This document shows positions 871 through 34,758 of a stretch of 43,381 bases of DNA, in pieces. The translations under genes were made by a program, and so were the position numbers. Every line of letters starts with the position of its first letter. Position 1 is the first letter of the stretch. This stretch comes from an uncultured Synechococcaceae cyanobacterium (GTDB lineage Bacteria > Cyanobacteriota > Cyanobacteriia > PCC-6307 > Cyanobiaceae): positions 1-43,381 of the forward strand of contig CACBBE010000006.1 of the NCBI GenBank assembly GCA_902537395.1, given 5' to 3'. The notes under the pieces were generated by a model. It was given only the letters and a program-made list of their open reading frames with translations. It was not told where the DNA came from and ran no database searches.

Positions 871-1636
871 ATCTTTCAGAGTCTACCCATTCTTTTAATT
901 TATCCTTAAATAATTTTTTACCTTGGATGATTGGTTGGCAAAATGGTGGTTGATCATCATTGAGGCCTAACAAATCTGCAGTAACTCTTACTTGCCCATC
1001 GCAATAATTACCTGCACCGATACCTATTGTGGGAATAGATAAAGAATTTTGTATTTCTTTAGCCAGCAAATCAGGAATATGCTCAAGAACTATTGAAAAA
1101 CATCCTAATTTTTCAAGAATTGAAGCCTCTTTCTTGATTTTTTCTTGGCTTGCTAAGCTTTCTCCTTGTTTTCTTAATCCAATATTTAGATAGCTTTGTG
1201 GTGTAAGACCTATATGACCCATAACAGGAATTCCCATTCTTATTAATCTAGAAATAACTTTTTGTATTTCTGGTTCAGCTCCTTCCACTTTTACAGCTTT
1301 TGCATAAGTGCTCTGAATGATTTTCCCTGCATACTCAACAGCTTTATCCTCACCACATTGATAAGTCAGAAAAGGCATATCTGAGACGAGTAAAGGTTGT
1401 TCCTCAATTTTCTTCTTAAATCCTCTTGAAACAGCATTAGTATGATAAATTATATTTTCTAAAGTTAATGGTAATGTCGATTTGTATCCTAAGCAGACCA
1501 TTGCTAATGAATCTCCTACTAGTACAAGATCTACATTTGCTTGTTCTGCAATAGATCCTGAAATGGAGTCCCATGCAGTAAGCGCAATTATTTTGCGAGA
1601 ATTTTTTTTATAGTTAACTAGGTCTGAAGGTAACAT
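863..1636 (-). CDS. panB: 3-methyl-2-oxobutanoate hydroxymethyltransferase
   Basis: PanB transfers a hydroxymethyl group from 5,10-methylene-tetrahydrofolate to 2-oxoisovalerate to make ketopantoate, the first committed step to pantothenate and CoA. The 257 residues match the family's usual length (about 260). Visible motifs are the N-terminal barrel strand ALTAWDS, the metal-binding region LVLVGDSLAMV with the following LGY, VSDMPFLTYQ, VKVEGA, VMGHIGLTPQS, the IVLEHIP segment carrying the catalytic Glu, and the C-terminal IPTIGIGAGNYCDGQV. It starts with ATG at 1636 and is transcribed away from the SRP RNA gene, which begins 47 bases upstream on the other strand. No other pantothenate gene is present. 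Confidence 0.97.
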   Translation of the reverse strand: MLPSDLVNYKKNSRKIIALTAWDSISGSIAEQANVDLVLVGDSLAMVCLGYKSTLPLTLENIIYHTNAVSRGFKKKIEEQPLLVSDMPFLTYQCGEDKAVEYAGKIIQSTYAKAVKVEGAEPEIQKVISRLIRMGIPVMGHIGLTPQSYLNIGLRKQGESLASQEKIKKEASILEKLGCFSIVLEHIPDLLAKEIQNSLSIPTIGIGAGNYCDGQVRVTADLLGLNDDQPPFCQPIIQGKKLFKDKLKEWVDSERFN

Positions 1637-1797: not shown

Positions 1798-2907
1798 CTA
1801 TATCTTTTTATTTTGCCTTAATCTCAAAAACTCAGGAATACTGGCTCCAGATTCTTTATTGTCTGAAAAATTATATAAGGGTTGATTAGATAATCTGTTT
1901 TTTATTCTTTGTTGGTTTAATGGTTGGGTTGTTTCAAATCCTGTGGCAATTACAGTAACTTGTATCTCCCCTTCCATTGCCTCATCTACCACTGCACCAA
2001 CAATAATATTCGCTTCTTGATCAACAACATCATAAATAATTTCAGATGCAGAGGTCATGTCTTCTAAAGTCATGTCTTTGCCACCAGTAATATTTATAAC
2101 GCAGCCTTTAGCCCCATCAATTCTAGCTGCTTCTAACAAAGGACTATTCATTGCTGCCTGTGCTGCCTCTATAGCTCTGGATCTTCCTGAACCTATACCT
2201 ATTCCGAGGAGCGCAGTGCCAGCTTCCGTCATAACTGATCTTACGTCTGCAAAATCAACATTAACTAATCCTGGGCAAGTAATTATGTCACTTATACCTT
2301 TTACTCCCATCCTTAGAACATCATCAGCATTCCTAAATGCTTCTTGAAGAGGAGCTCCTGCTATAACCTCTTTTAATCGGTCATTTGGAATAACTATTAG
2401 AGTATCAACGTTTTCAGCTAGTCTTGCGATCCCCTCCTCTGCTTGCCGCATTCTTCTTTTGCCTTCAAAAGAAAATGGTTTGGTTACTATGCCTACTGTT
2501 AGAGCCCCACTTTGTTTGGCTACTTCTGCAACAACTGGAGCTGCACCTGTACCAGTTCCTCCACCCATTCCCGCGGCTATAAAAACTAGATCAGATCCCT
2601 CTAGAGCTTGTTGAAGCTCTTCTTTGGATTCTTCGGCTGCTTTTTGCCCAATACTTGGATTCCCACCTGCACCTAATCCTCTAGTGAGGTTTTGTCCAAG
2701 TTGAACCCTACTATCTGCAGAAGATTGAAGTAGGGCTTGTGCATCTGTATTGAGAACTCTAAATGAAACACCTTCTAAATCACTATTTATCATTCTATTA
2801 ACTGCATTACTGCCACCACCACCTACACCAATAACTTCTATTTTGGCATTTTGGCTTGGAAGGATTTCTCTCGATTGATCAAAGTTTGGATTGTTACCGA
2901 AGCTCAT
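1798..2907 (-). CDS. ftsZ: cell division protein FtsZ
   Basis: FtsZ is the tubulin-like GTPase that polymerises into the cytokinetic ring. The 369 residues contain [14 protein letters not shown] near residue 27, the tubulin signature [10 protein letters not shown] near 115, and the T7-loop region GVNVDFADV-like ([13 protein letters not shown]) near 214, which supplies the catalytic aspartate. A short variable linker leads to the C-terminal peptide [11 protein letters not shown], the docking site for membrane tethers; in cyanobacteria ZipN/Ftn2 is such a partner and is encoded at 26205-28310. The start is ATG 2907. The 180-base gap to the ftsQ-like gene holds an inverted repeat (2945-2963) and probably ftsZ's own promoter. 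Confidence 0.98.
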
Positions 2908-12019: not shown

Positions 12020-12024
12020 CAAAG

Positions 12025-12106
12025 TGGGAGCGGTCGGACTTGAACCGACATACCCGAAGGTGCCGCATTTTGAGTGCGGTGCGTCTACCAATTCCACCAC
12101 GCTCCC
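12025..12106 (-). tRNA. trnL: tRNA-Leu (anticodon CAA)
   Basis: On the minus strand: acceptor GGGAGCG (12106-12100) pairs with CGCTCCC (12032-12026), discriminator A at 12025, anticodon stem CCGCA/TGCGG with loop CTCAAAA giving CAA, a long variable arm (CACCTTCGGGTA, the class II hallmark of tRNA-Leu) and T arm GTCGGTTCAAGTCCGAC. It is 82 nt without an encoded CCA. It reads UUG, also used as a start codon by several genes here. argD follows 5 bases downstream on the same strand. Confidence 0.97.
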
Positions 12107-12383
12107 AAGGCTTTTGAAAAAATGAACTTTTTTATTATAACAAAAATCAATTTATTGACTATTATTTTGCTCAAGGAACAGTTAACAAGCTAACGTTTTT
12201 TAATGGTTAATCTTTTCGATAAAAAATAGGATTATTTATTGCATTTGCTGACAAGAAATAAGTTAAAAAAGAAAATTTAGACATTTATGATACATTTTTG
12301 TGATTAAATATGCTTAAAAGTCTTTTTTAAAAGGAGATAGCTTCACTATTAGTAATATTTTGTTATATTTATAAGAAAAACAA
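12107..12383. other. AT-rich non-coding stretch upstream of two tiny ORFs
   Basis: These 277 bases hold no ORF I can support. They must contain the leftward promoter for tRNA-Leu/argD and the rightward promoter for the small ORFs. Visible pieces are GTTAACAAGCTAAC with a short dyad followed by a T run near 12180-12202, an AAAGGAGATAG stretch near 12330, and candidate -10 boxes TAATAT (12353-12358) and TATATT (12364-12369) for the rightward ORFs. None is strong. Confidence 0.4.
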
Positions 12384-12491
12384 ATGTCTAAAATCCAAGC
12401 TAAAAAATTATCCTTTAAATTTGTCCCTTATCTTTTTATTGCAGTGACTATATTGACAACATTTGGATCTAATAGCGGAATTTGGGTATGA
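12384..12491 (+). CDS. 35-residue single-span membrane peptide (first of a coupled pair)
   Basis: ATG 12384 opens 35 codons to TGA 12489-12491. The N-terminus is strongly basic (MSKIQAKKLSFK, five lysines) and leads into a hydrophobic helix FVPYLFIAVTILTTF (residues 13-27), ending with a short polar tail GSNSGIWV. This predicts one membrane span with the positive end in the cytoplasm. The TGA overlaps the ATG of the next ORF (ATGA), a normal sign of coupled genes. I do not recognise it as a photosystem, cytochrome b6f or NDH small subunit. It could be a small subunit of a membrane complex or a regulatory microprotein; function unknown. Confidence 0.6.
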   Translation: MSKIQAKKLSFKFVPYLFIAVTILTTFGSNSGIWV

Positions 12492-12598
12492 ATGAATTCA
12501 AATTTAAAGGTTTAAATAAAATTTGGTCTAATCGCTTTTTAGTTTTGTTTATATTATTTTTGAGTTGCATTTCACTAATTAACATTGCTTACGTTTGA
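12488..12598 (+). CDS. 36-residue single-span membrane peptide (second of a coupled pair)
   Basis: ATG 12488 overlaps the stop of the preceding ORF by 4 bases and opens 36 codons to TGA 12596-12598. The layout repeats that of its partner: a basic start (MNEFKFKGLNKIWSNR), then a hydrophobic helix FLVLFILFLSCISLINIAYV to the C-terminus. The FLSC segment recalls a lipobox but lacks the usual residue at -3, so lipidation is doubtful. It ends 38 bases before the convergent murA stop. Two short ORFs of matching topology joined by an ATGA overlap are unlikely by chance, but neither has a recognised family. Confidence 0.58.
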   Translation: MNEFKFKGLNKIWSNRFLVLFILFLSCISLINIAYV

Positions 12599-12636: not shown

Positions 12637-14007
12637 CTAAGCTGCTTCGAGTTTTGAAAGATTCTCAGATTTATGTTCAATTTCATATTCATTATTTTCA
12701 AAAATACTTTTACTGATCTCTCTAGTTATTTTTACACCTAAATTTTTTAGTTTTAATTCAAAATTTTCATAACCTCTATCCAAATGTTCTAATCCATATA
12801 TCTTACTACTACCTTTTGCCATGATTCCTGCAATTATTAATGCAGCTGATGATCTTAAATCTGAGCCAACTAGATTCATCCCAATAATTGCTTTAACACC
12901 TTTGATGTGAGCTACGTTTTTGTTCAGTTTTATACGGGCTCCCATTTCGTTGAGTAAATAAATATGATTCATTCTGTTTTCGAAAATTGTTTCAGTAATC
13001 TTTGATTCACCATTTGCGATTGTCATTAGAGCTGTAAATGGTGCCTGCAGATCAGTAGGAAAGCCTGGAAAAGGAGCTGTTTCAATATCTACTCCTTTAA
13101 TCTCTTTACTCTTGATAGAAATCGAATTACCTTTAATCGTAATTTTACTTCCACTCTCTTGAAGTTTATGAGTAACAGCTTCAAGATGATGAGGGATTAC
13201 TGGAGAAATTGTTATTGAAGAGAAAGTTGCAGCAGCAGCTATTAGAAAAGTTCCAGCTTCTATTCGGTCTGGAATTACTTTATGGGTGCATCCGCCAAGC
13301 TTATTAACACCATCAATAATAATTGTTTCTTTACCGGAGTCATAAATTTTTGCCCCCATTTTATTAAGCATTTGGCATAAATCTTGAACTTCAGGCTCTC
13401 TAGCAGCATTTTCAATAGTAGTTCTTCCTTTGGCTAAAGATGCTGCCATTATTAAAGTTTCAGTCGCACCCACACTTGGACAATTTAATTTAATATGAGT
13501 CCCATGAAGTCTATTTTTGGCCCCCCTTGTTTTTGCCTTGACAATTCCCTCTTCAATAATAATGTCTGCTCCTAATGCGATTAGCCCATTAATGTGCTCG
13601 TCTATTGGCCTTGAACCAATATTGCATCCACCTGGTAACGGTACTTGAGCTTCTCCAAATTTAGTTAATAGTGCACCTATACAAAAGAAACTAGCTCTTA
13701 ATCCTTTAACAAGTTCATAAGGAAGTTCTTTAATCGAAATAGTAGTTGGATCTATTTCTACTTGGTTGTTTTTACGAACTAAATTCACTCCTAAATTCTT
13801 TAAGATATTCCCCATCTTTTCAATATCAGTGAGAAAAGGTACATTTTCAAGAATTATTTTTTCATTAGTTAGCAATGATGAGGCTAATAAAACTAAGGCG
13901 GAATTCTTCGCACCACTAATTTCAACTATTCCATTTAACTTGCCTTGGCCAAGAATCTTTAAATTTTGCGATTTAAGATATGACTTCGTTTTGCTTCCGC
14001 AAATCAT
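12637..14007 (-). CDS. murA: UDP-N-acetylglucosamine 1-carboxyvinyltransferase
   Basis: MurA commits UDP-GlcNAc to peptidoglycan synthesis by adding enolpyruvate. In 456 residues one sees the inside-out barrel repeats, the N-terminal LNGIVEISGAKNSALVLLA, the catalytic loop PLPGGCNIGSRPIDEHI carrying the active-site Cys (the target of fosfomycin in other bacteria), CPSVGATETLIMAA, RIEAGTFLIAAA, and PTDLQAPFTALM. It is longer than E. coli MurA (419), partly through a charged C-terminal tail of about 20 residues (NEYEIEHKSENLSKLE). The start is ATG 14007; a large inverted repeat begins 4 bases upstream of it. Confidence 0.97.
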   Translation of the reverse strand: MICGSKTKSYLKSQNLKILGQGKLNGIVEISGAKNSALVLLASSLLTNEKIILENVPFLTDIEKMGNILKNLGVNLVRKNNQVEIDPTTISIKELPYELVKGLRASFFCIGALLTKFGEAQVPLPGGCNIGSRPIDEHINGLIALGADIIIEEGIVKAKTRGAKNRLHGTHIKLNCPSVGATETLIMAASLAKGRTTIENAAREPEVQDLCQMLNKMGAKIYDSGKETIIIDGVNKLGGCTHKVIPDRIEAGTFLIAAAATFSSITISPVIPHHLEAVTHKLQESGSKITIKGNSISIKSKEIKGVDIETAPFPGFPTDLQAPFTALMTIANGESKITETIFENRMNHIYLLNEMGARIKLNKNVAHIKGVKAIIGMNLVGSDLRSSAALIIAGIMAKGSSKIYGLEHLDRGYENFELKLKNLGVKITREISKSIFENNEYEIEHKSENLSKLEAA

Positions 14008-33537: not shown

Positions 33538-34758
33538 ATGAGTGGTTTTAATTTTGATGTAATTACATTGTCCCCTAAAGCTTTTGAATTAATAAATAAT
33601 TTAGGGGTCATAACAAGAGCTCTAGATAAGAATTTGATCGATGTAAATTTACATGATTTAAGAGAATATGGAGAAGGTTCTTACAGACAAGTAGACGACA
33701 AGCCTTATGGAGGAGGAGCAGGTATGGTTTTAAAACCTGAACCTATTTATAAGGCATATGAATCAATTAGAAAATCACCTAAAAGTAAAACTTTGCTGAT
33801 GACCCCTCAGGGTAAAGTTTTAAAGCAAAAGGATCTTGCGAGATGGTCCACTTTGGATCAAATAATAATTATTTGTGGTCAATATGAAGGTTTTGATGAA
33901 AGGATTAGATGTTTAGCTGATGAAGAGATATCGATAGGCGATTATGTCCTTTCGGGAGGTGAAATCCCTGCTATATCAATAATTAATGGTTTGACTAGGT
34001 TATTACCAGGGACTCTTGGTGATCCAGACTCCTTAGTCGATGAGAGTCATAATTCCTCTTTATTAGAATATCCTCAATACACAAGGCCTTTAACTTTTAA
34101 AGATATGAAAGTACCAGATATTTTAGTGAGCGGTAATCATAAAGAGATTAAATCGTGGAGAAGAAAAAAAAGTTTTGAGAGAACATTGGAGAGAAGAAGT
34201 GACTTAATTTCAAATGAAGACTACAAAAAATCCCCACAAAGTAAGAGAATAATAAAAGAAAATAATCAATTCATGAAATTTAGAATAGGCAATGGATACG
34301 ATATTCACAGACTAGTAGAGGATAGAGATTTAATTATTGGAGGTGTAAAATTGCATCATCCTCAAAATTTAGGATTGGATGGTCATAGTGATGCTGATGT
34401 TTTAAGTCATTCAATAATGGATGCATTATTAGGAGCGCTTTCGTTAGGCGACATCGGAAAGTATTTTCCCCCATCTGATGAAAAATGGAAAAATGCTGAT
34501 AGCTTGTTTTTGTTATCAAAAGTAATTGTCTTGATAAGACAAGATGGTTGGGAAATAAATAATATTGATAGTGTTCTTGTTGCTGAAAGGCCAAAAATCA
34601 TGCCACATATAAAACTAATGAAAAAAAATATTTCTGAAATTTTAAATATTGATGTAAATTTAATTGGGATTAAAGCAACCACGAATGAAAGATTGGGTCC
34701 AGAAGGGAGAGAAGAGGGTATAAGTTGCCATTCAGTAGTTCTTCTTGAGAAAAAATGA
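33538..34758 (+). CDS. fused tRNA (guanine-N1)-methyltransferase and MECDP synthase (TrmD-IspF)
   Basis: One uninterrupted 406-codon frame holds two enzymes. Residues 1-225 are TrmD, making m1G37: [60 protein letters not shown]-like [12 protein letters not shown] and [14 protein letters not shown]. Residues 246-406 are a complete IspF (161 residues), the MEP-pathway cyclase: GNGYDIHRL with metal ligands Asp and His, [49 protein letters not shown] linker of about 20 residues ([18 protein letters not shown]) joins them. An in-frame ATG at 34273 opens IspF, so separate IspF could also be made. The next gene overlaps the stop by 4 bases. Confidence 0.93.

Follow-up and report, generated by a model that had tools for sequence, protein, structure and literature searches.

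Overlapping genes for two predicted single-pass membrane peptides of high-light-type Prochlorococcus share a promoter architecture with hli genes

Introduction

The 530-base interval between tRNA-Leu(CAA) and murA in an uncultured Synechococcaceae cyanobacterium houses two very short open reading frames that overlap, and the question raised by this locus is whether they are genes and, if so, what their products do. The interval lies in a stretch of 43,381 nucleotides of contig CACBBE010000006.1, which was analyzed as a whole and is called the window below. An earlier note, made from the letters of the window, had described two tiny ORFs with an ATGA overlap between tRNA-Leu and murA, and this description is correct. 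ORF1 (12384-12491, plus strand) encodes a predicted single-pass membrane peptide of 35 aa and ORF2 (12488-12598, plus strand) one of 36 aa; both assignments draw on conservation, pN/pS and AlphaFold2. The stop codon of ORF1 and the start codon of ORF2 are merged in ATGA (12488-12491, plus strand), a putative site of termination-reinitiation coupling. The flanking tRNA-Leu(CAA) gene (12024-12106) and the convergent murA (12637-14007) are both on the minus strand. Elsewhere in the window, a 406-aa ORF (33538-34758, plus strand) reads by eye like TrmD joined to IspF.

Results

Each of the two peptides consists of a basic N-terminus and a single hydrophobic stretch. The best 19-residue Kyte-Doolittle mean is 1.69 for ORF1 (residues 9-27) and 2.57 for ORF2 (residues 18-36), and the segment ahead of the hydrophobic stretch contains three K/R and no D/E in ORF1, and four K/R and one D/E in ORF2. 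AlphaFold2 returned a single helix for both peptides (residues 4-29 with a mean pLDDT of 72.8 for ORF1; residues 6-35 with a mean pLDDT of 80.0 for ORF2). These results bear out the lysine-rich start and the one hydrophobic helix that the earlier note had assigned to each ORF. A membrane location is predicted from these features, and the positive-inside rule would place both N-termini inside. The claim of matching topology holds to the extent that both peptides are single-span, but they are not two copies of one peptide, a possibility ruled out by an hhalign probability of 0.3%. Only one more ATGA-coupled pair in the window has two ATG-started ORFs of 25-60 aa, and that pair is not hydrophobic, in agreement with the view that the arrangement is unlikely by chance. 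A fusion of ORF1 and ORF2 by -1 frameshifting was considered as well. The junction has no visible slippery heptamer (read by eye only), and at nearly every locus the ORF2 frame extends openly for just 4-5 codons ahead of its start, which counts against such a fusion.

Conservation was assessed in 81 sequences, the window plus 80 fetched loci, of which 60 were best hits and 20 were hand-chosen, mostly for divergence; some places are included twice, leaving 70 distinct pairs. The two ORFs lie side by side with a 4-base overlap in the window and in the 80 fetched loci, and murA was found in 80 of these 81 pair-carrying sequences, the exception (L039) being a contig end. The overlap has the same length (-4) in 70 of 70 distinct pairs and reads ATGA in 69 of them; the sole deviating pair, L074, has ATAA, with an in-frame ATG two codons upstream. 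The stop-start overlap appears to be maintained by selection, as would be expected of a translationally coupled pair. ORF1 starts four codons earlier in 7 of the 70 distinct pairs, and ORF2 is shorter by 2 residues in L070. Frames broken in close relatives, which the earlier note had named as evidence against the pair, were encountered once: ORF2 of L015 (genome G036) is frame-shifted near its end, by either real decay or a sequencing error, and the other 69 distinct pairs show no such break. The pooled uncorrected pN/pS is 0.252 for ORF1 and 0.237 for ORF2 in frame, versus 0.94-2.6 in shifted frames. Residues F18, T25 and W34 are invariant across 55 distinct ORF1 sequences, and G8, L9, W13, S14, R16, F17, L18, S29 and N32 across 51 full-length ORF2 sequences. 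Spurious ORFs are ruled out by the frame-specific conservation and synteny, and it is close to certain that both ORFs are coding; they evolve under purifying selection.

Among 200 genomes of the genus, ORF1 was matched in 162 and ORF2 in 179 at E-values of up to 10. Some of these matches are weak, and therefore the cleaner tally is that of the 66 sampled Prochlorococcus-genus genomes that are at least 90% complete: ORF1 is present in 62 of these, and ORF2 was matched in 64, two of them (G140 and G181) weakly, at E about 0.1. The named pair-carrying loci belong to Prochlorococcus, including MIT 9314 and MIT 9201, and to 'uncultured Synechococcaceae' genomes. A scan of 300 family genomes with the ORF2 profile matched 27, of which 24 are of the genus and three are others, at E 0.001-0.007. 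On reading, two of these three (L103 and L105) look unrelated, and L104 lies within a 279-aa frame; with the ORF2 profile in these 300 genomes, no pair was found outside the genus. Both profiles were searched in 18 low-light or Synechococcus-type genomes and gave weak hits only, the exception being an ORF1-like peptide encoded next to hli genes. The pair is absent from all 24 outgroup murA loci searched; tRNA-Leu(CAA) follows murA in 20 of the 20 outgroup loci scanned, and the promoter core has at least five mismatches in 19 of 21 loci (19 outgroup murA loci plus L242 and L243). Of the relatives syntenic with murA that the earlier note had proposed to look for in Prochlorococcus and marine Synechococcus, the former were found, and no Synechococcus-type relatives were found by profile. 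The ORF2 profile found no relative in a scan of viral contigs, and tblastn of ORF1 in phage records gave a single hit with E 8. A 142-aa protein of genome G184 (L106, 1171-1596) has a C-terminal helix, NWSNRFVVVALLTISAIALSKQAWA, that resembles ORF2; its E-value against the ORF2 profile is 0.0012 in a small set and 0.0038 in the 300 family genomes.

A clear ORF1 match is missing from 44 genomes (38 with none and 6 with a weak one). Fourteen of these were checked for murA, with three positive; the remaining 11 have no murA in the available sequence and are uninformative on the absence of the pair. In G104 and G108 the interval is intact and the pair is absent, and in G049 murA is cut by the contig end. 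In the murA tree, G104 falls inside the high-light group as the sister of a pair-carrying genome, which implies at least one loss of the pair; G108 is placed near the base on a long branch, and this placement is unsure. It should be noted that four genomes (G202, G209, G237 and G290) have two murA-like genes each, and the high-light genomes compared alongside show one. We conclude that ORF1 and ORF2 are real genes of high-light-type Prochlorococcus, the sun-adapted strains of a minute photosynthetic bacterium that abounds in the ocean.

The ORF1-like peptide mentioned above belongs to genus g56. The ORF1 profile picks a 26-aa ORF in five g56 genomes with per-genome E-values of 0.002-0.004. When this peptide was searched back in 251 genomes, 13 g56 genomes were matched (11 at 100% and two at 96%); the only match outside g56 is in G015, with a per-genome E-value of 0.039 that is not significant alone, and it lies inside ORF1. 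That a stray match lands in this very place makes homology of the g56 peptide and ORF1 plausible, and the two can be compared as KLVPYIFMAVAIF against KFVPYLFIAVTIL, with weak reciprocal matches. Three bases vary in four aligned loci of the g56 ORF, all of them third positions. Unlike ORF1, the g56 peptide has a shorter N-terminus, no ORF2 partner and a different locus: it is encoded at 1501-1581 (plus strand) of L231, beside two hli genes at 2321-2617 and 2626-2871 (minus strand). No palindrome of the hli type described below was noticed before the g56 ORF.

Neither ORF rose above noise in searches of Pfam, NCBIfam and PHROGs; the best Pfam value is that of DUF7940 (E 0.036, in one of 15 ORF2 members). 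The PDB gave no hit to ORF2 up to E 10, and for ORF1 its best and only chain is the photosystem I subunit PsaJ 8jw0_j at E = 1, a value that falls to 0.09 when three g56 ORF1-like peptides are added to the profile. The claim that the peptides match no known photosystem, b6f or NDH subunit is in line with these searches, none of which gave a significant match. HLIPs, or small CAB-like proteins (hli, scp genes), are light-stress proteins that, like the predicted products of the pair, are small and span the membrane with one helix. No match to HLIP or Chloroa_b-bind (PF00504) was obtained for ORF1, ORF2 or the 15 members of each alignment, and the NGRxAM-type chlorophyll-binding motif of HLIPs is in neither peptide. 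Thus, unlike HLIPs, the pair has no HLIP motif and no Pfam or PHROG match, and consists of two unlike, ATGA-coupled peptides. The small subunits of photosystems, b6f and NDH-1, with PsaJ as the nearest hit, resemble the two peptides in size and in having one membrane helix.

The region upstream of ORF1 was aligned across the compared loci. A conserved block directly precedes ORF1 and has the form GCTTCA-N6-GTAATATT-N2-GTTATATT; its commonest 30-base form is exact in 25 of 70 upstream regions, and four regions were missed by the search pattern. In the window, the block comprises a putative -35 element, GCTTCA (12340-12345, plus strand), and a direct repeat resembling HLR1, GTAATATT-TT-GTTATATT (12352-12369, plus strand), which overlaps a putative -10 element, TTATAT (12363-12368). 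The -35 assignment, 17 bases before TTATAT, is our reading of the upstream alignment; the generic promoter scan prefers TTCACT at 12342. That scan found 6 sites versus 5.2 in shuffles, and so it proves nothing alone. The published RpaB site HLR1 is KTTACAWW-N2-KTTACAWW, a consensus from PCC 7942 and PCC 6803, not from Prochlorococcus, and in those two strains an HLR1 over the start region is described as keeping genes repressed under low light and releasing them under high light (PMC13421787 and PMC6331805). The repeat in the window fits 13 of the 16 HLR1 positions, and scores of 13 or more occur 65 times in the window; the HLR1 score alone is ruled out as proof of RpaB control, a score of 13 being common by chance. 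The compared pair promoters score 12-13 of 16, in L285 with the best scores at other offsets, versus 14-16 for hli promoters. The position of the repeat matches that in hli promoters, and control of the pair by RpaB is likely, judging from the promoter sequence. In the genome that the window comes from, HLR1 matches of 15 and 14 of 16 precede one hli gene (L246, around 1340-1390).

Farther upstream lies an imperfect copy of a palindrome, GNTACA-N4-TGTANC, a candidate operator recognized from the alignment and a genome survey; in the window it reads GATACATTTTTGTGAT, with 2 mismatches (12289-12304, plus strand). Of 69 upstream regions, 56 retain the full core ACA-N4-TGT, and the palindrome starts 93-98 bases before ORF1 in 53 of 69, with outer arms that are symmetric in just 15-21 of 69 rows. 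Scores of 15 or more were obtained for 83% of rows versus 5.5% in shuffled sequence, a control that ignores relatedness. The palindrome is perfect in several divergent lineages, decayed in the sublineage of the window (GATACATTTTTGTGAT), and imperfect in G015 too.

We surveyed perfect palindromes in 11 near-complete genomes, a set outside of which the window's genome and G015 fall. G041 carries the pattern GNTACANNNNTGTANC at 4 places, and the other 10 near-complete genomes together carry it at 20 (G171 lacks it), versus 2 places for a reversed control pattern in the same 11 genomes. Of these 24 GNTACA-N4-TGTANC sites, 12 are upstream of hli genes, 5 are upstream of the pair (in 5 of the 11 genomes) and 7 are inside rpaB; accordingly, all 17 non-coding sites belong to hli genes or the pair. 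The 12 hli genes were identified by a PHROG match in six (E 3e-10 or better) and by motif in the rest. The PHROG family that was matched is one of phage proteins; cyanophages carry hli genes too. The hli-upstream palindromes are located 82-118 bases before the ATG in 10 cases and 207-209 bases in two; the palindromes face both ways, and beyond some of them lies a further ORF of at least 30 aa. In pair promoters, a GTTAY box starts at an offset of 72-73 from the palindrome (the box of L072 is GTTAGAGT). The corresponding offset is 73 or 83/84 for 11 of the 12 hli promoters; in the hli promoter of L270 the best HLR1 is at offset 52. In both kinds of promoter, the palindrome and the box are at matching distance; unlike in hli promoters, the GTTAY box of the pair is within a weaker HLR1-like repeat. 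This architecture common to the pair and hli genes is newly found here and well supported. By these features, the palindrome and the GTTAY box at a fixed distance, the pair would belong to the hli regulon. Search listings of the literature showed no description that we recognized of the palindrome GNTACA-N4-TGTANC. The palindrome inside rpaB sits at one position in 7 of the 11 genomes (1501-1516 in L271-L275 and L279; 1557-1572 in L288) and could be a chance feature of the coding sequence or serve autoregulation. The response-regulator gene bearing it is rpaB by NCBIfam, as tested on L271; the other six have the same protein start.

In genome G015, which we take to be MED4, ftsZ is the ninth ORF when counting starts just after murA (gene names by eye). 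Since ftsZ is PMM1309 (as named in PMC2921402), murA would be PMM1300. In MED4, PMED4_14671, which lies opposite the 3'UTR of PMED4_14661 (PMM1300), is reported to go up 14-fold when light increases, and PMM1300 to stay basal (section on PMED4_14671 in PMC2518516). With murA as PMM1300, PMED4_14671 is most simply one of ORF1 and ORF2, by position only. This light-induced gene is like the pair in its position, and the section of PMC2518516 devoted to it is silent on a second ORF, an overlap, conservation, a promoter and a function. A literature search found mention of PMED4_14671 and PMM1300 in PMC2518516 alone.

Discussion

What, then, might the two peptides do? The on-switch of the pair resembles that of known light-stress genes, and for this reason the pair is probably an overlooked part of the protection against strong light. 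Our best explanation, which we hold to be reasonably probable, is that ORF1 and ORF2 are bicistronic light-stress genes of high-light Prochlorococcus, encoding coupled single-pass peptides that probably act in the thylakoid. A single transcript with a short leader would arise from the hli-type promoter, in which the palindromic operator precedes the presumed transcription start by about 70 bases and the HLR1-like repeats lie over the -10 element. RpaB would probably repress the pair in low light and release it in strong light. Ribosomes terminating on ORF1 may reinitiate on ORF2 at the ATGA, which would yield matched amounts of two peptides, both single-pass with the N-terminus inside, that most likely act together in the thylakoid under light stress. 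The peptides may be accessory subunits of a photosystem, of a repair complex or of an HLIP-containing complex. Of the two roles that the earlier note had envisaged, subunits of a membrane complex would be our preferred reading, and a regulatory pair found no direct support. Speaking for the best explanation are the conservation of the pair and its fixed overlap, the palindromes and GTTAY boxes that it has in common with hli genes, the light induction of PMED4_14671 and the location of the g56 peptide next to two hli genes. Counting against it are the lack of an HLIP motif and of a Pfam match, HLR1 scores lower than those of hli promoters, the imperfect palindrome in the window, most close relatives and G015, the identification of PMED4_14671 by position only, the loss of the pair in G104 and its absence from G108.

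Several other explanations can be weighed against the same data. The pair could be induced together with hli genes and yet have a general membrane role, for example as small components of a transporter, a respiratory complex or one of NDH type; single-pass subunits of small size occur commonly in these complexes, and nothing here ties the peptides directly to a photosystem. We regard this as rather unlikely, given the promoter shared with hli genes, the absence of Pfam or PDB matches to known small subunits and the light induction described in the section of PMC2518516 cited above. The small size, the basic N-terminus, the one hydrophobic helix and the stress-type promoter also recall TisB-like peptides of type I toxin style, which would act on the membrane and slow growth under light stress. 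Such a role is improbable for two unlike, coupled peptides whose locus is the same throughout the genus and whose sequences are under strong purifying selection, and inspection of the interval by eye revealed no antitoxin.

Transcription of the pair converges on murA, and PMED4_14671 is described as overlapping the 3'UTR of PMED4_14661 (same section of PMC2518516), so that the transcript might function mainly as RNA, antisense to the 3' end of murA, with the ORFs being secondary. Purifying selection on the reading frames disfavors this explanation, as does the basal level of PMM1300 during the 14-fold rise of PMED4_14671 (PMC2518516), and we consider it very improbable. Descent of ORF1 from PsaJ, of which it would be a degenerate relative, deserves as little credence: 8jw0_j is the only PDB hit of the extended ORF1 profile, the match to this single chain spans only a hydrophobic stretch of 14-15 residues, and none of the 15 ORF1 members has a Pfam match.

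Returning to the light-stress explanation, a more far-reaching version can be offered tentatively, as possible rather than probable. High-light Prochlorococcus, after the split from the low-light forms, may have evolved a two-peptide membrane device under the operator of HLIP genes, with translational coupling providing matched amounts and each peptide contributing one helix to a cofactor that protects or repairs photosystems. The hli regulon would then include the pair as its first non-HLIP member, with the palindrome as the mark of a second regulator beside RpaB.

Conclusions

The pair illustrates how coupled micropeptides escape annotation, and the palindrome provides a handle on the control of hli genes. 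High-light Prochlorococcus dominates sunlit tropical oceans, and an account is needed of how so few regulators suffice for its survival in strong light. A pair of light-stress type that is confined to one clade and had escaped the standard family libraries would be a testable addition to that account.
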